DNA from: Prauserella isguenensis
GTDB taxonomy: Bacteria > Actinomycetota > Actinomycetes > Mycobacteriales > Pseudonocardiaceae
Assembly: GCF_014191605.1 (NCBI RefSeq)
Contig: NZ_JACHWU010000002.1
Location: forward strand, 496,001 to 560,000
Length of the DNA: 64,000 bases
Direction: 5' to 3'
Part shown: piece after piece, positions 5,192 to 12,658 of the stretch
Numbering within the stretch: position 1 is the first letter of the stretch
How the letters are laid out: each line of letters starts with the position of its first letter
Program-made: the position numbers and the translations under genes
Notes under the pieces: generated by a model
What the model saw: the letters and a program-made list of their open reading frames with translations, nothing else
The model's database searches: none
What the model was told of the DNA's origin: nothing

Positions 5192-6628
5192 TCAGTGCGC
5201 GATGCTGACCGAGCGCGTGTTGAGGTAGGCCTCCATCGCCTCGGGCCCGCCCTCGGAGCCGTAGCCGGAGTCCTTCACACCGCCGAACGGCAGTTCCGCG
5301 GACGGCATGGCCGGCATGTTGACCCACAGCATGCCCACCTCCACCTTCCGTGTGAGCGTGTCGGCGGCGGCCAGCGACCGGGTGAAGGCGTAGCCGGCGA
5401 GGCCGTACGACAACCGGTTGGCCTCGGTGATCGCCTCGTCGAGGTCGGTGAACCCGCGGATGGCCGCGATCGGCCCGAACGGCTCCTCGTTGAACAGGCG
5501 CGCATCGGACGGGACCTCGTCGAGCACGGTCGGCGCCCAGAAGTTGCCCGCGTCGCCGATCCGCTCACCGCCGGCGAGCGCGGCCGCGCCCCGTCCCACG
5601 GCGTCGTCATGGAGCGAGGCCATGGCGTCGAGCCGCCGGCTGTTGGCCAGCGGGCCCATCTCGGTGCCCTCGGCCAACCCGTCGCCCACCGTCACGCCGG
5701 TGGCCGATTCCGCCAGCGCCTTGGCGAAGTCGGGGCGCACGGACTCGTGCACCAGGAAGCGTGTCGGCGAGATGCACACCTGGCCCGCGTTGCGGAACTT
5801 CGCCTTGGCCATGGTCTTGACCGCGAGCTCCACGTCGGCGTCCTCGCACACGATGACCGGCGCGTGCCCGCCCAGTTCCATCGACACGCGCTTCATCTGC
5901 CGTCCTGCGAGCTCGGCCAGCTGTTTGCCGACCGCGGTCGAGCCCGTGAAGGTGATCTTGCGGATCGCCGGGTGCGCGATCAGGTACTCGGAGATCTCCG
6001 CGGGGTCGCCGTACACGAGCGCGAGCACGCCCGCGGGCAGACCTGCGTCCTGGAACGCGCGTACCAGCGCCGCCGGGCTGGCGGGCGTCTCCTCGGGGGC
6101 CTTCACGACCATCGAACAGCCCGTGGCCAGGCAGGCGCCGAGCTTGCGCACCACCTGGTTGATCGGGAAATTCCACGGTGTGAAGGCCGCCACCGGGCCG
6201 ACCGGGTCCTTCACGACGAGCTGGCGGATCGACGGGTCCGCGCGATGCGGCACCGTGCGGCCGTAGACGCGCAGTCCCTCGTCGGCGAACCAGTCGATGA
6301 TGTCCATGCCCGCCAGGATCTCGCCCTTGGCCTCGACCAGCGGCTTTCCCTGCTCACGCGTCATCAGGCCCGCGATCTCGTCGACGCGCTCACGCACCAG
6401 CGCGGCGGCCCGGTGCATGATCGCGGCGCGCTGCGCGGGCGTGTAGTCGCGCCACACCTCGAAGCCGCGGCGCACCGAGTCGGCGGCGGCGTCGAGGTCA
6501 CGGCGCGAGGCGTGCGCGACGCCGCCGATCACCTCGCCGGTCGCGGGGTTGTGGACGTCGATCCGGCGACCGTCCTCCGCATCCCTCCAGTCGTCGTCGA
6601 TGAAGAGCCGGGTGTCCGGATAGGTCAT
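5192..6628 (-). CDS. NAD(P)-dependent aldehyde dehydrogenase (succinate-/2-oxoglutarate-semialdehyde type)
   Basis: 478 aa, ALDH superfamily. Motifs in order are [14 protein letters not shown], the cofactor-binding VVKAPEETP, the Rossmann FTGSTAVGK, the general-base Glu in ELGGHAP and the catalytic Cys in [11 protein letters not shown]. The sequence is closest in style to GabD/alpha-ketoglutarate semialdehyde dehydrogenases. The ATG at 6628 has GGAGGC upstream. It is the last gene of the sugar-acid locus, so oxidation of a semialdehyde or small aldehyde released in that pathway is the likely job. The 192-base gap before it may carry its own promoter. Confidence 0.88.
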
Positions 6629-6820: not shown

Positions 6821-8236
6821 CTATGCACCCGAGAGATCGAGCCCCACCACCTCCATCACGGTGTAGACCGCGAGCAGCGTGATGGCGATGCTGCTGATGA
6901 CGAACGCGACGGTCAGCCACCCGTTGCGTTTGAACCGCGCGTCGACCTCCGTGCTCCGCAACCGCCAGACCGCGATGAGCACGGCCAGCAGGAAGATCCC
7001 GGTGGCGATCGCGCCGATCTGCATCAGCACCAGCGGAGAGCGGACGAACAGGTACATCACCAGCCACAGCGCGGGCAGGCACACCGTCAGGATCCTCAGC
7101 ACCCGCGCGCGGACCCGGACGTCGTGCCAGTCGATCACGCCCATCAGCCCGAGGGTGTTGGTCCAGAGCCGGGGCACCGCGGCCGCGGAGGCGATGTTGG
7201 TGGAGAACAGCACGCAGATCGCGCCCACGAGGAACAGTGCCTCGGCCCACGGGCCCAGCGTGTCGGTGTACATCCGCGAGACGGTGGTGATCACCTGATT
7301 GCCCTCGGGCACGAGGCTCTGCGCGTGGAGCACGCTCGCGCCGACGACGTAGAACGAGAGCGTGGTGACCGTGCAGATCAGCCACGAGACGAACACGTCC
7401 AGCTGCATCACCCTGATCCAGCCCTCGGCGCGCCGGGCCCGTTCCTCGGTGCCGTCATCGGCACCGGTCCAGCGGGCGTATCCCTTCTCGAGGCACCAGT
7501 AGGTGTAGTTCGTCATGTCGTCGGCGCCGACGCCGGTCGAGCCGAACATCGCGACGGCCAGCCCCACCGTCCCCGCAGGGATCGCGAGACTCAGCCCGTC
7601 GCCGAAGTCGCCCGCACTGTAGGCGAACGGGGTGAACGGCAGGGCGAGCACGAGCGCCACGGTGATGAGCGTGAACAGTGCCACCGACCACGTCGTGATC
7701 GTCTCGACCACGCTGTAGCGGTTGCTGCGCAGCAGCCCGACGGTGAGCGCGGTGACGATGACCGCCCACGTGGTGAGAGAGCTCCCGCTGAGCGGCTCGC
7801 CGACGATGGGCCACAGGATCGAGAACGCGGCCGCCGCACCACCGATCACGCCACCGCGTTGGAAGTTCTTCGCGATGTCGAGTCCGATCCACAGCCAGTT
7901 GATCCAGCCCATCCGGCCGATCTTCGGCGGAATGGTGGAGTACCCGGCCAGTGCGGTCTTGCCGTTGAGGATGGCCCAGCGGGCCAGCTCCATCTGCACC
8001 CACACCTTGACCGCGGCACCGACGATCACCAGCCACAGCAGGACGAAACCCGCGCGGGCGCCCAGCGACGTGGTGACGAGCAGTTCGCCGGAGCCCACCA
8101 CCGACGCCGTGAGAACGATGCCGGGACCGAGGTGCCGCAGCCTGCCGCGCAGCGTCGTCGGCGGCTCCCTGACGTCCTCGGCACGGAGCAGGTAGGCGTC
8201 CTCGAGGGGCGTGTCGGGCACGTCCTTTGTAGACAT
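6821..8236 (-). CDS. Nramp-related (LeuT-fold) permease without metal-binding motifs
   Basis: About 471 aa with roughly 11 hydrophobic segments. The start at 8236 follows AAGGAAG. Overall pattern and length match the Nramp superfamily, but transmembrane helix 1 reads VVGSGE where Mn/Fe Nramps carry DPGN. Helix 6 reads FGSTGVGADDMTNY where they carry an A/M-P-H motif. The residues that coordinate metal are therefore absent. It sits between aldolase and aldehyde dehydrogenase genes, where a substrate transporter would be expected, so import of a sugar acid or another organic substrate is my inference. A non-canonical metal function cannot be excluded. Confidence 0.8.
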   Translation of the reverse strand: MSTKDVPDTPLEDAYLLRAEDVREPPTTLRGRLRHLGPGIVLTASVVGSGELLVTTSLGARAGFVLLWLVIVGAAVKVWVQMELARWAILNGKTALAGYSTIPPKIGRMGWINWLWIGLDIAKNFQRGGVIGGAAAAFSILWPIVGEPLSGSSLTTWAVIVTALTVGLLRSNRYSVVETITTWSVALFTLITVALVLALPFTPFAYSAGDFGDGLSLAIPAGTVGLAVAMFGSTGVGADDMTNYTYWCLEKGYARWTGADDGTEERARRAEGWIRVMQLDVFVSWLICTVTTLSFYVVGASVLHAQSLVPEGNQVITTVSRMYTDTLGPWAEALFLVGAICVLFSTNIASAAAVPRLWTNTLGLMGVIDWHDVRVRARVLRILTVCLPALWLVMYLFVRSPLVLMQIGAIATGIFLLAVLIAVWRLRSTEVDARFKRNGWLTVAFVISSIAITLLAVYTVMEVVGLDLSGA

Positions 8237-8297: not shown

Positions 8298-8915
8298 CTA
8301 CCCCACCGCGTCGACGAGCCGGCGCGCCCCCGCACGCACCGCGTCCGGGTCGCCCGGCGCACCGAGCAGCTGCACCCCGACACCCACGCCCGTGCAGCCC
8401 TCGGCCAGGCACGCGCGGGCCAGGTCGGGGCCGACGCCACCGGTGGCCAGCATCGGCACGTCCGGCAGCGGCCCCTTCAGCTGACGGACGTGGTCCGCTC
8501 CCACCGGGGAGATCGGGAACACCTTCACCACGTCGGCACCGAGTCTGATCGCGCGCACCACCTCGGTCGGGGTGAACGCCCCGGGCACGGTGCCGATCCC
8601 CAGGTCCTGCGCTTTGGCGATCACCGCCTCGTCCACGTGCGGCGAGACGACGAAACGCGCGCCCGCATCGGCGGCCCGTGACACGTCGTCGGCGGTCATC
8701 ACGGTGCCCGCGCCGAGCGCCAGCTCGTCGCCGTACTCCTCCCGCAGGGCGCGGATCGCCGCGAACGGCTCGTCGGAGTTCAACGTCACCTCGAACAGCC
8801 CGAGCCCCTCTTCGCGCAGCAACGCGGTGAGGTCGAGGCACTCGCGCGCGGACTGCCCGCGGTAGATCACCATCGCGCGGTACTGCCGGAGCTGTGCCAG
8901 GACGTCGTCGGCCAT
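8298..8915 (-). CDS. 2-dehydro-3-deoxy-(phospho)gluconate/galactonate aldolase, KDPG aldolase family
   Basis: 205 aa, the normal size of class I KDPG/KDPGal aldolases. The catalytic Glu lies in LFEVTLNS and the Schiff-base Lys in DVVKVFPIS. The phosphate- or carboxylate-binding loops GAGTV and ATGGV are present. The enzyme cleaves a 2-keto-3-deoxy acid to pyruvate and an aldehyde. The ATG at 8915 has GAGGAG upstream, 41 bases after the IlvD/Edd-type dehydratase. Substrate stereochemistry cannot be read from the sequence. It fits as the aldolase of the surrounding sugar-acid pathway. Confidence 0.88.
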   Translation of the reverse strand: MADDVLAQLRQYRAMVIYRGQSARECLDLTALLREEGLGLFEVTLNSDEPFAAIRALREEYGDELALGAGTVMTADDVSRAADAGARFVVSPHVDEAVIAKAQDLGIGTVPGAFTPTEVVRAIRLGADVVKVFPISPVGADHVRQLKGPLPDVPMLATGGVGPDLARACLAEGCTGVGVGVQLLGAPGDPDAVRAGARRLVDAVG

Positions 8916-8956: not shown

Positions 8957-10726
8957 CTACAGGTGCCTCCGGGGCACGCCGTGTCCCCGCCTGCCCACGA
9001 GGAAGTCGAAGTCGGCGCCGGTGTCGGCCTGGCGCACGTGGGTGCGGTACAGCCACTCGTACCCGGAGGCGGTCTCCGACGGTGCCGGAGACTCCGTGGA
9101 GGCCGAGGGCTTGGTGGGCGCCGGGGCGCTCCCGGAAACCCTGCGTTGCAGTTCGTCGTCGGGCACGTCCATGTCGATCCGGCGGCCCGGCACGTCGAGC
9201 GTCACGCGGTCGCCCGTGCGCAACAGCGACAGCGGCCCGCCGCGTGCGGACTCGGGCGCGACGTGCAGCACCACCGTTCCGTACGAGGTGCCGCTCATCC
9301 GGCCGTCGGTGATGCGCACCATGTCCCGTACCCCGGCGTCGAGCAGTTTCTTCGGAATCGCCAGGTTGCCGATCTCGGGCATGCCCGGGTACCCGGCGGG
9401 TCCCGCGCCGCGCACGACGAGCACGGTCGAGGCGTCCACCGGCAGATCCGGCGAGTCGGCCTGCTCGTGGTACTCCTCGATCGTGTCGAACACGAGGGCG
9501 GGGCCGGTGTGCCGCAACAGGTCCTCGGAGGCCGCCGACACCTTGATCACAGCTCCGTCGGGCGCCAGGCTGCCGCGGAGCACCGCCGTGTGGGCACCGG
9601 CCTCGTGCACCGGTTCGGCGCGTGGACGGACGACGTCGGTCCGCCAGTTCGGCGCGTCTGCGCAGTTCTCGCCGAGGCAGCGGCCGGTAACGGTGGCGGC
9701 GTCGGTGTGCAGCAACTCGCCGAGTTCGCGGATCACGGCCGGCAGTCCGCCCGCGTAGAAGAACTCCTCCATCAGGAATCGGCCGGACGGCAACAGGTCC
9801 ACCAACAACGGGACGTCGGCGGCGAGCTTGTCGAAGTCGTCCAGTGACAGATCCACCTCGGCACGCCCTGCGATCGCGAGCAGGTGGACGACGGCGTTGG
9901 TCGACCCGCCGATGGCCGCGTTGACACGGACCGCGTTCTCGAACGACCGCCGGTCCACAACGGACGACGGGACGAGGCCCTCCTCCACCATCTCGACGAT
10001 CCGCCCGCCCGCCTGTTCCGCGACGCGGTTCCGCTGCGCGTCGACGGCGGGGATCGCGGCGCTGCCCGGTAAGGAAAGCCCGAGTGCCTCGGTCAGGCAC
10101 GCCATCGTCGAGGCGGTGCCCATCGTCGTGCAGTGCCCGGCACTGCGGGACAGACAGGCTTCGGCGGCCGCGAAGTCCTCCCGGCTCATCCGACCCGCAC
10201 GCACCTCTTCGCTGAACTGCCACACGTGCGTACCGGACCCGGCGTCGCAGCCCTGGAACTTGCCGTTCAGCATCGGGCCGCCGGTGACCATGACCATCGG
10301 GAGGTCGGCGCTCAGCGCACCCATCAGCTGCGCGGGTACCGTCTTGTCGCAGCCACCGAGCAGCACGACGCCGTCGAGCGGATTGGCGCGCAGCGTCTCC
10401 TCGACGTCCATCGCCATGAGGTTGCGGAACTGCATGGCCGAGGGCCGCATCAACGTCTCGCCGAGAGAGATCGTCGGGAACTCGAACGGCACGCCGCCCG
10501 CCATGAGCACGCCGCGTTTCACGGCCTCGGCCACCTGCCGCAGGTGCGCGTTGCACGGCGCGAGGTCCGACGCACTGTTCGCGATGCCGATCACCGGACG
10601 CCCGTCGAACATCGAGGCCGAGTAGCCCTGGTTGTACAGCTTCGACCGGTGGACGAACCCGAGTTTGCCGTCGAGTCCGAACCACGCCTGACTGCGGCGA
10701 ACGGACCCGGGGTCTTCTGGCGCCAT
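8957..10726 (-). CDS. IlvD/Edd family dehydratase (sugar-acid dehydratase)
   Basis: About 589 aa. The three Fe-S ligand cysteines of the family lie in SDLAPCNAH, GGCDKTVPA and SAGHCTTMG. MDVEETLRANPLDG and DGRMSGTSYGT are also diagnostic. The N-terminus (LYNQGYS, RPVIGIANS) looks like arabinonate/xylonate-type dehydratases rather than IlvD itself. The enzyme removes water from an aldonate to give a 2-keto-3-deoxy acid. The start is GTG-ATG-ATG; the third codon (10726) has the best spacing (5 bases) from GGAG. A candidate operator cluster lies just upstream. Confidence 0.88.
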   Translation of the reverse strand: MAPEDPGSVRRSQAWFGLDGKLGFVHRSKLYNQGYSASMFDGRPVIGIANSASDLAPCNAHLRQVAEAVKRGVLMAGGVPFEFPTISLGETLMRPSAMQFRNLMAMDVEETLRANPLDGVVLLGGCDKTVPAQLMGALSADLPMVMVTGGPMLNGKFQGCDAGSGTHVWQFSEEVRAGRMSREDFAAAEACLSRSAGHCTTMGTASTMACLTEALGLSLPGSAAIPAVDAQRNRVAEQAGGRIVEMVEEGLVPSSVVDRRSFENAVRVNAAIGGSTNAVVHLLAIAGRAEVDLSLDDFDKLAADVPLLVDLLPSGRFLMEEFFYAGGLPAVIRELGELLHTDAATVTGRCLGENCADAPNWRTDVVRPRAEPVHEAGAHTAVLRGSLAPDGAVIKVSAASEDLLRHTGPALVFDTIEEYHEQADSPDLPVDASTVLVVRGAGPAGYPGMPEIGNLAIPKKLLDAGVRDMVRITDGRMSGTSYGTVVLHVAPESARGGPLSLLRTGDRVTLDVPGRRIDMDVPDDELQRRVSGSAPAPTKPSASTESPAPSETASGYEWLYRTHVRQADTGADFDFLVGRRGHGVPRRHL

Positions 10727-10749
10727 CATCACTCCACGGTGAGCGCATC

Positions 10750-10799
10750 AGTACATGCAACGGATCGTTGCAGCATACGATCTCACCAGATTACATGCA
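10750..10799. promoter_or_regulatory. GntR-type operator cluster upstream of the IlvD/Edd dehydratase
   Basis: Two copies of the TACATGCAA core occur at 10752-10760 and 10792-10800, the second as ATTACATGCA (10790-10799). A perfect inverted repeat TGCAACG GAT CGTTGCA lies between them (10756-10772). The same ATTACATGCA occurs upstream of the GntR gene at 12649. This position fits a second promoter within the locus, controlled by that regulator. Confidence 0.6.
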
Positions 10800-10838: not shown

Positions 10839-11975
10839 TCAGGCTGCGACGTCCACCTCGGACTCCGTGACCGCGGTGAGGGCTGCCTCGTCCATCCGGA
10901 CTCCGAGACCGGGCAGCGCGGGCACGCCCACCGACCCGTCCCGCGGCGTCGGCGGATCGGCCAGCAGCGGGTCGCGCAGCGGGTTGTCCCTGATGTCGTA
11001 CTCGACACCGTCCACCGGCTCGGCCATCGCGGCGAGCTGCAGCGTCGCGGCGAACGCGACCGCGCCGCCGTACAGGTGCGGCAGCACCCGCGTGCCGTAC
11101 GCGTCGGCGAGGTGGCAGATCGCGATCGTCTCCGTGAGACCGCCGGTCTTGGCGAGATCGGGCTGCAGGATCCCGACCGCCGGCGACGCGGCGAACGCGC
11201 GGAACTCCTCGACGCCGTACTGGTTCTCTCCCGTCGCAAGGAGCAGTCCGGTGCGCCGGTGGAGTTCCTCCAGTCCGTCGAGGAGGTTTCCGCGCAGCGG
11301 CTCCTCGAGCCACGCCACCCCGGCGTCCCGCAGCACCGGCGCCATGGCGACCGCCTCGGGCACGTCCCACGCCTGGTTGGCGTCGGCGTAGAGCTCCACG
11401 TCCGGTCCGACCGCCTCCCGCGCGGCGGCCAGGTTGCGTTCGTCGGTCGCCCGGCCGAAGCCGAGCTTGACCTTCACGGCGGTATGCCCGGCCGCCACAC
11501 ACGCACGGGCCGTCTCGCCGACGTCGCCGGGACCGAGACTGCTCGCGTACACGGGAGTCCGGTCGCGAACGCGACCCGCACCCAGCTCGGAGACCGCGCA
11601 CCCGGCCCGTTGCCCCGCCAGATCCCACAGCGCGAGGTCGGCGCCGCTGATGGCCTGGCGGATCGGCCCCGGCGCACCCCACTGCCTGCCCAAGGGGTCC
11701 AGGCGCGTGCACAACGTCCGGTGGAGCGCGGCGATCCGGGTGGCGTCCTCACCCCGCAGCAGCGGGAACACGCCTTCCCTCAGGGTGGCGACGCGTTCCC
11801 GCACGGCCCACGGCGGATAGTTGGTCCAGCTCTCGCCCCGCCCGGTCAGCCCGTCGTCGGTGGTCAGTTCCACCAGCACCGCGGAGCGGTGGCGCAACGG
11901 CGAGAACGACATCGCGATCCCGTCGCCGACCGGAGCGCGCAGCACCCGCAGCCGCGCGTCGACGATGCGGGTCAT
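10839..11975 (-). CDS. Enolase-superfamily sugar-acid dehydratase (mandelate racemase/muconate lactonizing type)
   Basis: 378 aa. The acid-base lysines appear in VKVKLGFG (KxK). The three metal ligands lie in DANQAW, EEPL and TGENQY, and PHLYGGA follows near the C-terminus. The N-terminal capping domain is complete. Such enzymes abstract the proton alpha to a carboxylate and typically dehydrate or epimerise sugar acids. The start codon overlaps the stop of the GntR gene by 4 bases (ATGA), so both form one transcript. The substrate is unknown; having two different dehydratases in one locus suggests two sugar acids or successive steps. Confidence 0.87.
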   Translation of the reverse strand: MTRIVDARLRVLRAPVGDGIAMSFSPLRHRSAVLVELTTDDGLTGRGESWTNYPPWAVRERVATLREGVFPLLRGEDATRIAALHRTLCTRLDPLGRQWGAPGPIRQAISGADLALWDLAGQRAGCAVSELGAGRVRDRTPVYASSLGPGDVGETARACVAAGHTAVKVKLGFGRATDERNLAAAREAVGPDVELYADANQAWDVPEAVAMAPVLRDAGVAWLEEPLRGNLLDGLEELHRRTGLLLATGENQYGVEEFRAFAASPAVGILQPDLAKTGGLTETIAICHLADAYGTRVLPHLYGGAVAFAATLQLAAMAEPVDGVEYDIRDNPLRDPLLADPPTPRDGSVGVPALPGLGVRMDEAALTAVTESEVDVAA

Positions 11976-12640
11976 GCGCCCGCCTCGGCCTGCTGCTGCA
12001 ACAGGGTGCGCAACCGGAAGATGTGTGCGCGCGCGGCCTGCTCGGCGGCCGTGGCGTCACCGGCCTCGATCGCGGTCAGGATCGCGCGGTGGTCGTCGAG
12101 CGCCTGCCGCGGCCCCGAGGTCACCGTGGTCGTGCGCATGGCGAGCCGGACCCGGGTCTGCACGTCGTCCAGCAGGCGGACCACCTCGGCGTTGCCGCAG
12201 GCCTCCCGGATGAGTCGGTGGAAGCGCATGTCGGCCTCGGTGCTCGCCGCGAGGTCCGCCGTCCGCATCGCGGCCTCGTGATCGTCGAGCGCCCCCTGCA
12301 GGGCCCGCACCAGCCTGCGGCCCGCGTTCTCGACGGCGAGCCGGGCGGCGAGTCCTTCCAGGACCTCGCGAACCTCGTAGATCGCGGCCAGTTCGGCCGC
12401 CCCCACGTGCGCGACGACCGCTCCGCGGCGCGGCTCCTCCCTGGCCAACCGTTCCTGAACGAGCCGCAGCACCGCGTCCCGCACCGGACTGCGGCTGACC
12501 TCCAGTTGCTCCGCGAGAGCGGGCACGCTCAGCCGCGCACCGGCGGGAAGCTCGCCCGTGAAGATCATCTCGCGCAGTCGTTCGCAGACCGCGTCGGCGA
12601 CCCTCGTCCGCGCCGCGGTCGTCTCGTTCACTCCGGCCAT
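11972..12640 (-). CDS. GntR family transcriptional regulator (FadR/FCD subgroup)
   Basis: 222 aa. The N-terminal winged helix contains the GntR signature LSVPALAEQLEVSRSPVRD. The C-terminal all-helical FCD ligand domain carries metal- or effector-binding histidines (FHRLIREACGN, DDHRAI, RAHIFRL). It is the first gene of the transcript with the enolase-superfamily enzyme and is the probable local regulator. The repeated ATTACATGCA sites near its own promoter and before the IlvD-type gene are its likely targets, with a sugar acid as effector. These last points are inference. Confidence 0.88.
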   Translation of the reverse strand: MAGVNETTAARTRVADAVCERLREMIFTGELPAGARLSVPALAEQLEVSRSPVRDAVLRLVQERLAREEPRRGAVVAHVGAAELAAIYEVREVLEGLAARLAVENAGRRLVRALQGALDDHEAAMRTADLAASTEADMRFHRLIREACGNAEVVRLLDDVQTRVRLAMRTTTVTSGPRQALDDHRAILTAIEAGDATAAEQAARAHIFRLRTLLQQQAEAGA

Positions 12641-12648
12641 ACCGCGAT

Positions 12649-12658
12649 ATTACATGCA
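12649..12658. promoter_or_regulatory. ATTACATGCA operator copy at the GntR promoter
   Basis: An exact match to the sequence at 10790-10799. It lies 8 bases before the GntR ATG on the minus strand, where a bound repressor would block its own transcription. Confidence 0.55.

Follow-up and report, generated by a model that had tools for sequence, protein, structure and literature searches.

The locus described here raises the question of whether a protein of a textbook metal-transporter family, encoded among genes for the breakdown of sugar acids, carries a metal or an organic acid. The gene lies on the minus strand at positions 6821-8236 of the window, by which is meant the whole 64-kb stretch of DNA that was analysed (contig C2:496001-560000 of a 4.95 Mb genome). 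The question was approached through the helix motifs of the protein, the operon around it, the gene neighbourhoods of its relatives and the literature on related carriers.

The permease gene and its operon

The open reading frame of the permease is intact, running from an ATG at 8236 to a stop codon at 6821, and encodes 471 residues. A copy with 95% identity was present in another genome; a pseudogene was ruled out by the intact frame and by conservation in relatives. The protein had been predicted to be of the Nramp type, and this was borne out by NCBIfam model NF037982 ('Nramp family divalent metal transporter'), which matched at 1.3e-32 (113.6 bits against a cut-off of 50), and by a match to MntH in the PDB (1.3e-5). 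Pfam PF01566 (Nramp) gave no match at E ≤ 0.1. Positions 1-402 of the 404 in the NF037982 profile were covered, so that homology to Nramp extends over nearly the full length of the protein, and a LeuT fold may be presumed from this homology.

The helices that bind metal in canonical members were compared using a profile of twelve relatives aligned with human NRAMP2/DMT1. In helix 1 this alignment was ungapped, and the DPGN of canonical SLC11/Nramp proteins was absent from the permease, which has GSGE at residues 48-51 (D to G48, P to S49, G to G50 and N to E51). Helix 6 of the permease is GSTGVGADDMTNY, where canonical Nramp has A-x-x-M-P-H; the A/CxxM-P-H pattern was absent, its place being taken by TGVGADDMTN. 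Met241 can be aligned with the canonical Met column in one alignment, given a six-residue insertion. This column held M in 33, I in 11 and L in 8 of 52 clade rows, so that Met241 does not qualify as a conserved ligand; the Pro-His pair was absent. Replacement of DPGN in helix 1 and of M-P-H in helix 6, both claimed in the original prediction, was thus found in the alignments. The proton-path Asp and Glu of helix 3 (D131 and E134 in DraNramp) were also lacking, with no Asp or Glu in the permease in either of two alignments one residue apart, which place Q126 or R127 and G129 or V130 at these positions. In a 52-row alignment of the clade defined below, G48, G50 and E51 were each present in 52/52 rows and S49 in 51/52. 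K123, Q126, G128 and G129, which belong to the helix-3 motif K123-xx-QRGG, were likewise each present in all 52 rows, and D239 in 51. A Lys at the position of K123 was absent from the other Nramp groups compared.

The permease gene forms part of a block of six genes on the minus strand, from 12640 down to 5192. At its head is a gene for a GntR/FCD transcription regulator (11972-12640; Pfam), which overlaps by 4 bases the gene for an enolase-superfamily (MR_MLE) enzyme (10839-11975) with KVK and PH motifs that we take to be of the mandelate-racemase type. The third gene encodes an IlvD/Edd-family sugar-acid dehydratase with Cys-bearing motifs (8957-10732), which starts at GTG 10732 or at either of the two ATGs that come next. 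The dehydratase is close to enzymes of the L-arabinonate-dehydratase type: it scored 850 bits against the PRK06131 subfamily (cut-off 539) and 793.6 bits against the L-arabinonate dehydratase model, below that model's cut-off of 882, and its top PDB matches were dihydroxyacid dehydratase 8ej0 and L-arabinonate dehydratase 9evv. A KDPG/KHG-type aldolase (8298-8915; PF01081, 2.6e-31) follows, for which ATG 8915 was preferred to GTG 8960 as the predicted start and whose KVFP motif presumably holds the class I lysine. Beyond the permease gene lies an aldehyde dehydrogenase gene (5192-6628), whose best model, succinate-semialdehyde dehydrogenase, was matched below its cut-off. The original prediction had set the permease between aldolase and aldehyde dehydrogenase genes with a dedicated GntR regulator; the aldolase was indeed found upstream, the dehydrogenase downstream and the regulator at the head of the block, and the dehydratase and enolase-superfamily genes had been omitted.

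A simple hydropathy count marked the permease as the only polytopic protein among the called genes, and no further transporter was observed in the block; Pfam places the products of the aldolase and GntR genes, both missed by the gene caller, in soluble families. All six genes were kept at loci L022-L025 and L042-L044 (L023 and L042 being one locus), the last three of which carry the full set in Prauserella salsuginis, P. flavalba and P. endophytica, respectively. In P. cavernicola (L045) the aldehyde dehydrogenase was not found in the stretch examined. The block was rearranged or reduced in Tamaricihabitans (L046, the same locus as L026), Murinocardiopsis, Streptosporangium and Streptomyces lycii (L047-L049).

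Operator-like boxes were located on the minus strand in front of two of these genes. One, TGCATGTAAT, lies just upstream of gntR at 12649-12658. Upstream of the dehydratase gene are box 1, again TGCATGTAAT (10790-10799), a weaker middle box, TATGCTGC (10770-10777), and box 3, TGCATGTACT (10750-10759). The motif TGCATGTA(A/C)T was picked by eye before counting, so that its counts are not unbiased: three in the 64-kb window, each upstream of gntR or the dehydratase gene, with 0/100 shuffled windows reaching three, six in the whole genome and one in 720 kb of arbitrary loci. When the region upstream of the dehydratase gene was aligned between the window and 13 relatives (11 distinct loci), T(G/A)CAT of box 1, ATG of the middle box and T(G/A)CATG of box 3 were present in 14/14 rows, while the flanks varied. 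The TGCATGTA boxes are a putative operator of the GntR/FCD regulator.

Distribution and gene neighbourhoods of the GSGE clade

Relatives were collected with a 12-row alignment as query in a scan of 84,980 species genomes, and the best 80 of at least 555 confirmed stretches were kept. A quick tree was built from 105 rows of Nramp-family proteins, DPGN-lacking sequences included; it is unrooted, with long branches and no bootstrap, and the names of its groups are motif-based and our own. The window protein and 42 rows formed one clade, here called GSGE (SH-aLRT 100), set apart from the clade of canonical DPGN proteins, which includes E. coli MntH (SH-aLRT 100). SH-aLRT values were 99 for the NRMT-like group and 100 for the DIGD/TPY, PxpT-like and GAGD/GGT groups. 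PxpT is not the closest relative of the permease: the PxpT-like group, which was set by motif and by a carboxyltransferase-domain neighbour (2/3 loci) and not by comparison with PxpT itself, lay across a 95% branch from the GSGE clade in a long-branched placement. The DIGD/TPY group, whose helix 1 reads DIGD or DIGE and whose helix 6 mostly reads TPY, was well supported (n=14; L152, L155, L157, L158, L161-L163, L165-L170 and L172). Three identities for the permease were ruled out: that of a canonical Mn/Fe Nramp by the motifs and the tree, that of an NRMT by the motif (no DxxG-TxxA/T) and the tree, and that of a PxpT orthologue by the lack of a 5-oxoprolinase neighbour and by its position in another clade.

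Gene neighbourhoods were scored for eight core classes of acid-sugar enzyme (IlvD/Edd, MR_MLE, KDPG aldolase, HpaI aldolase, PdxA2, DUF1537 kinase, galactarate dehydratase and DHDPS-type), a gene being counted at tblastn E ≤ 1e-10 over at least 40% of the reference within 5 kb. The clade sample consisted of the best 80 of at least 555 scan stretches and 7 further loci, 91 entries being reduced to 87 by dropping four duplicates; 11 clade members were moved from the motif-based rest group after the tree and before the count. Scored with reference enzymes partly drawn from clade neighbourhoods, 57 of these 87 sampled loci had a core enzyme within 5 kb, and 41 had two or more. The corresponding counts were 0/17 for canonical DPGN loci (one of them the E. 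coli mntH locus, only 8 kb long), 0/9 for NRMT-like, 0/14 for DIGD/TPY, 0/3 for PxpT-like and 1/14 for GAGD/GGT loci, and 4/12 for G-type proteins that fall elsewhere than in the clade (two of these four positives are a single locus). Among 60 arbitrary positions, which were hand-chosen, mostly as round numbers, and 48 of which lie in genomes with a clade member, three had a core enzyme and one had two or more. With taxa that are not independent (29 of the 87 clade loci are from Streptomyces), Fisher tests gave p values of 3e-14 for the clade against canonical, NRMT-like and DIGD/TPY loci combined (n=40), 3e-10 against canonical and NRMT-like loci alone, and 1e-14 against the arbitrary loci. 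Positive loci occurred under 22 of 32 genus labels. For seven clade loci one flank was shorter than 2 kb, and some of the control loci were short as well; when the count was limited to loci with 4.5 kb or more on each side, it gave 54/77 for the clade versus 0/13 (canonical), 0/7 (NRMT-like) and 0/12 (DIGD/TPY).

At 54 of the 57 core loci an enzyme lay within roughly 1 kb of the permease, irrespective of strand, and another polytopic protein was encoded within 5 kb at 30 of them. The 30 clade loci lacking a core enzyme included four at contig ends and 11 near molybdenum hydroxylases; negative loci from alphaproteobacteria lay beside a urocanase/formylglutamase, TctA, SLC13 permease, NRPS or topoisomerase gene. 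The reference carboxyltransferase-domain gene, the link to 5-oxoprolinase, was found within 5 kb of 0/87 clade loci as against 2/3 PxpT-like loci.

Ten of the 44 independently annotated records with a match were examined. Replicons of Streptomyces albus and Streptomyces sp. NBC_00564 carried genes annotated as DeoR, PdxA, four-carbon acid sugar kinase, aldo/keto reductase, aldolase, phosphoglycerate dehydrogenase and Nramp, and the Rubrobacter indicoceani record MR_MLE, UxaA and GntR genes with a second Nramp-related gene. Among more distant relatives, that of the archaeon Halocatena (30% identity) has genes for mannonate dehydratase, a DHDPS-family protein, aldehyde dehydrogenase and IclR in its neighbourhood, that of Microscilla (40% identity) has SusD and GH43, and that of Halorussus (24% identity) has oxoprolinase-family genes. 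Sugar-acid context was absent in four of the ten records, namely those of Skermanella (SLC13 permease and GH1 nearby), Roseomonas (NRPS nearby), Ketogulonicigenium and Deinococcus. As to annotation, NF037982 matches canonical and non-canonical members alike, and the product name in all ten of these records, which are plasmid records (L249-L258), was 'Nramp family divalent metal transporter'; five of these proteins are clade members with at least 53% identity.

Two residues varied with the neighbourhood. R127 was present at 59 of the 87 loci, and core enzymes were found at 50 of these 59 versus 7 of the 28 without it. Residue 243, in helix 6, was N at 11 loci, all with IlvD (the twelfth IlvD locus has F), T at 47 loci (43 with 2-hydroxyacid dehydrogenase, 34 with HpaI), F at 23 loci (11 with molybdenum hydroxylase) and another letter at 6. 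The differences follow subclades, so that both patterns represent few independent events; they name residues 127 and 243 as testable candidates for specificity.

Proposed function and alternative readings

Since the metal-binding residues are missing and the gene lies in a sugar-acid operon, as it does in most close relatives examined, the permease most likely carries an organic acid. We consider it quite probable that it is a sugar-acid importer, that is, an Nramp-related secondary carrier of the LeuT fold, and the substrate in this operon is probably a C5 or C6 aldonate. For the GSGE clade as a whole, genome context and the loss of the metal ligands lend strong support to the predicted movement of an organic acid in place of a metal. 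The original prediction had suggested the same of the clade, and it is upheld in part.

In the proposed scheme the permease would import a sugar acid, which the IlvD/Edd enzyme would dehydrate to a 2-keto-3-deoxy acid, while a second acid or a lactone may enter the pathway through the MR_MLE enzyme. The KDPG-type aldolase would split the 2-keto-3-deoxy acid into pyruvate and an aldehyde, the latter to be oxidised by the aldehyde dehydrogenase, and control of the block would fall to the GntR/FCD protein, acting at the TGCATGTA boxes. Within the permease, the GSGE and TGVGAD(D/E)xT segments may form the substrate site, with K123 of helix 3, and often also R127, holding the carboxylate and with E51 and D239 coupling protons. 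The retention of these last two carboxylates, which could in principle hold a cation, is a point against the importer reading.

Enzymes of the enolase superfamily, [2Fe-2S] dehydratases and class II aldolases depend on metals, and the permease could be a divalent-metal importer feeding Mg, Mn or Fe to the metal-dependent enzymes of the operon. The name of NF037982 and the conserved E51 and D239 agree with metal import. Precedents can also be cited: YcsG, an Nramp-related protein of a catabolic operon, is reported to raise cellular Mn (PMC10448178), and NRMT, which lacks the canonical motif, is described as moving Mg and Mn (PMC8806188). Metal import is, however, difficult to reconcile with the loss of the helix-1 Asp and Asn and the helix-6 Pro-His, with an invariant Lys in helix 3 and with a link to such operons that is not shared by canonical or NRMT-like loci; moreover, the block showed no alternative candidate that could carry the organic substrate. 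We regard it as unlikely, and what standing it keeps is due mainly to the dispute over YcsG and to the conserved carboxylates.

The permease might also carry a chelate of metal and sugar acid, or couple entry of the sugar acid to a divalent cation. The conserved Lys and carboxylates would lie together in the putative site, and the FCD repressor DgoR is described as needing a divalent metal to bind D-galactonate (PMC7674646), but the canonical metal ligands are gone, and we consider such a mechanism more unlikely still. Direction is not readable from sequence, and the protein might export a toxic intermediate or by-product, such as an aldehyde or keto acid, instead of importing the acid. This would leave the block with no other transporter that was seen, and PxpT, which is required when its substrate is to serve as carbon source for growth, points to import in that system (PMC13274462); export is judged very improbable.

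Relation to other Nramp-related proteins and known systems

Four Nramp-family genes were found in the genome, the window gene and those at C1:806570-807823 (L033), C10:84803-85984 (L034) and C5:127209-128267 (L035). DPGN was absent in all four, and a query with E. coli MntH gave only two weak matches; Mn import in this genome would have to depend on some other system. The gene at L034 has GAGD/GSM motifs, and in its vicinity (L034:6143-13895) are genes of the DHDPS type, for an aldehyde dehydrogenase-like protein, a TPP enzyme, MR_MLE and an epimerase. At L035 (7914-10188) a PxpT-like gene with GPGF adjoins a carboxyltransferase-domain gene, and the two PxpA-family genes of the genome are on other contigs. 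At another locus (L029:4996-10009, the same as L069) a single cluster encodes two dissimilar Nramp-related proteins, one with GTGD and one with GSGE, together with MR_MLE, a 2-hydroxyacid dehydrogenase and a BNR-repeat protein.

A wider reading may be put forward tentatively, as a serious possibility that falls somewhat short of being probable. Nramp-related proteins with glycine motifs (GSGE, GTGD/GAGD-GS, GPGF and kin) would be ancient, widespread organic-acid permeases of bacteria and archaea, canonical Nramp metal transport would have evolved from or beside them, and many proteins named 'Nramp family divalent metal transporter' would be misnamed. Matching enzymes at 4/12 other G-type loci (two being one locus) and at 2/3 PxpT-like loci speak for this reading; their presence at only 1/14 GAGD/GGT loci and at no ASGE-type locus speaks against it.

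Nramp-related proteins without DPGN and MPH are described as a mostly uncharacterised outgroup (PMC12873925, PMC4072509, PMC9606685, PMC10606218). A 2026 preprint treats such groups as paraphyletic, and the legend to its Figure 1 calls them entirely uncharacterised apart from the NRMT-like group and 'G-motif 3'; the characterised members it names are NRMT and the group holding YcsG/MntG (PMC12873925). In Alteromonas, clusters for alginate degradation contain, by the legend to one figure, an 'Nramp, metal-ion transporter' (PMC6431674). Among the top-ranked matches in open-licence literature, no sugar-acid role for the GSGE clade was found.

The original prediction also held that use of an organic acid was not established for Nramps, and in this it was mistaken. 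PxpT of C. glutamicum is reported to be required for growth on 5-oxoproline, with its closest relatives in TC 2.A.55 and a GntR-type repressor in its operon that binds 5-oxoproline, and genetic evidence for 5-oxoproline uptake is given for YcsG, an Nramp-family protein of B. subtilis (PMC13274462). In the case of YcsG a polar effect was not excluded, and the protein has been claimed for Mn import as well as for 5-oxoproline use (PMC10448178). Given the evidence on PxpT and YcsG, there is nothing new in an organic-acid role for a member of the Nramp family; by analogy, PxpT may serve as an Nramp-related precedent for the role proposed here.

If that role is correct, a large carbon-source branch would exist within a textbook metal-transporter family, sugar-acid pathways would gain a missing permease, and the automatic database label would need changing. 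A LeuT-fold switch between organic acids and metals could then be tested on homologues with different helix-1 and helix-6 motifs.

Among known systems, PxpT and YcsG resemble the permease in being Nramp-related and encoded in an organic-acid catabolic operon, which in C. glutamicum is under GntR control; they differ in clade, in motif (GPGF/GGY in the PxpT-like group) and in pathway. Canonical Nramp/MntH (SLC11) proteins are homologous to the permease over nearly their full length, whereas the permease has neither DPGN nor MPH and falls in a separate clade, and none of the 17 canonical loci lies near a core enzyme. The NRMT magnesium transporters are likewise Nramp-related proteins without the canonical motif, but their motif is given as DxxG-TxxA/T (PMC8806188) where the permease has GSGE and TGVGADD, and they too form a separate clade. 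The GSGE clade would correspond to one of the paraphyletic, uncharacterised groups of PMC12873925; the available part of that text proposes no organic substrate for these groups, whereas sugar acids are the substrate class proposed here.
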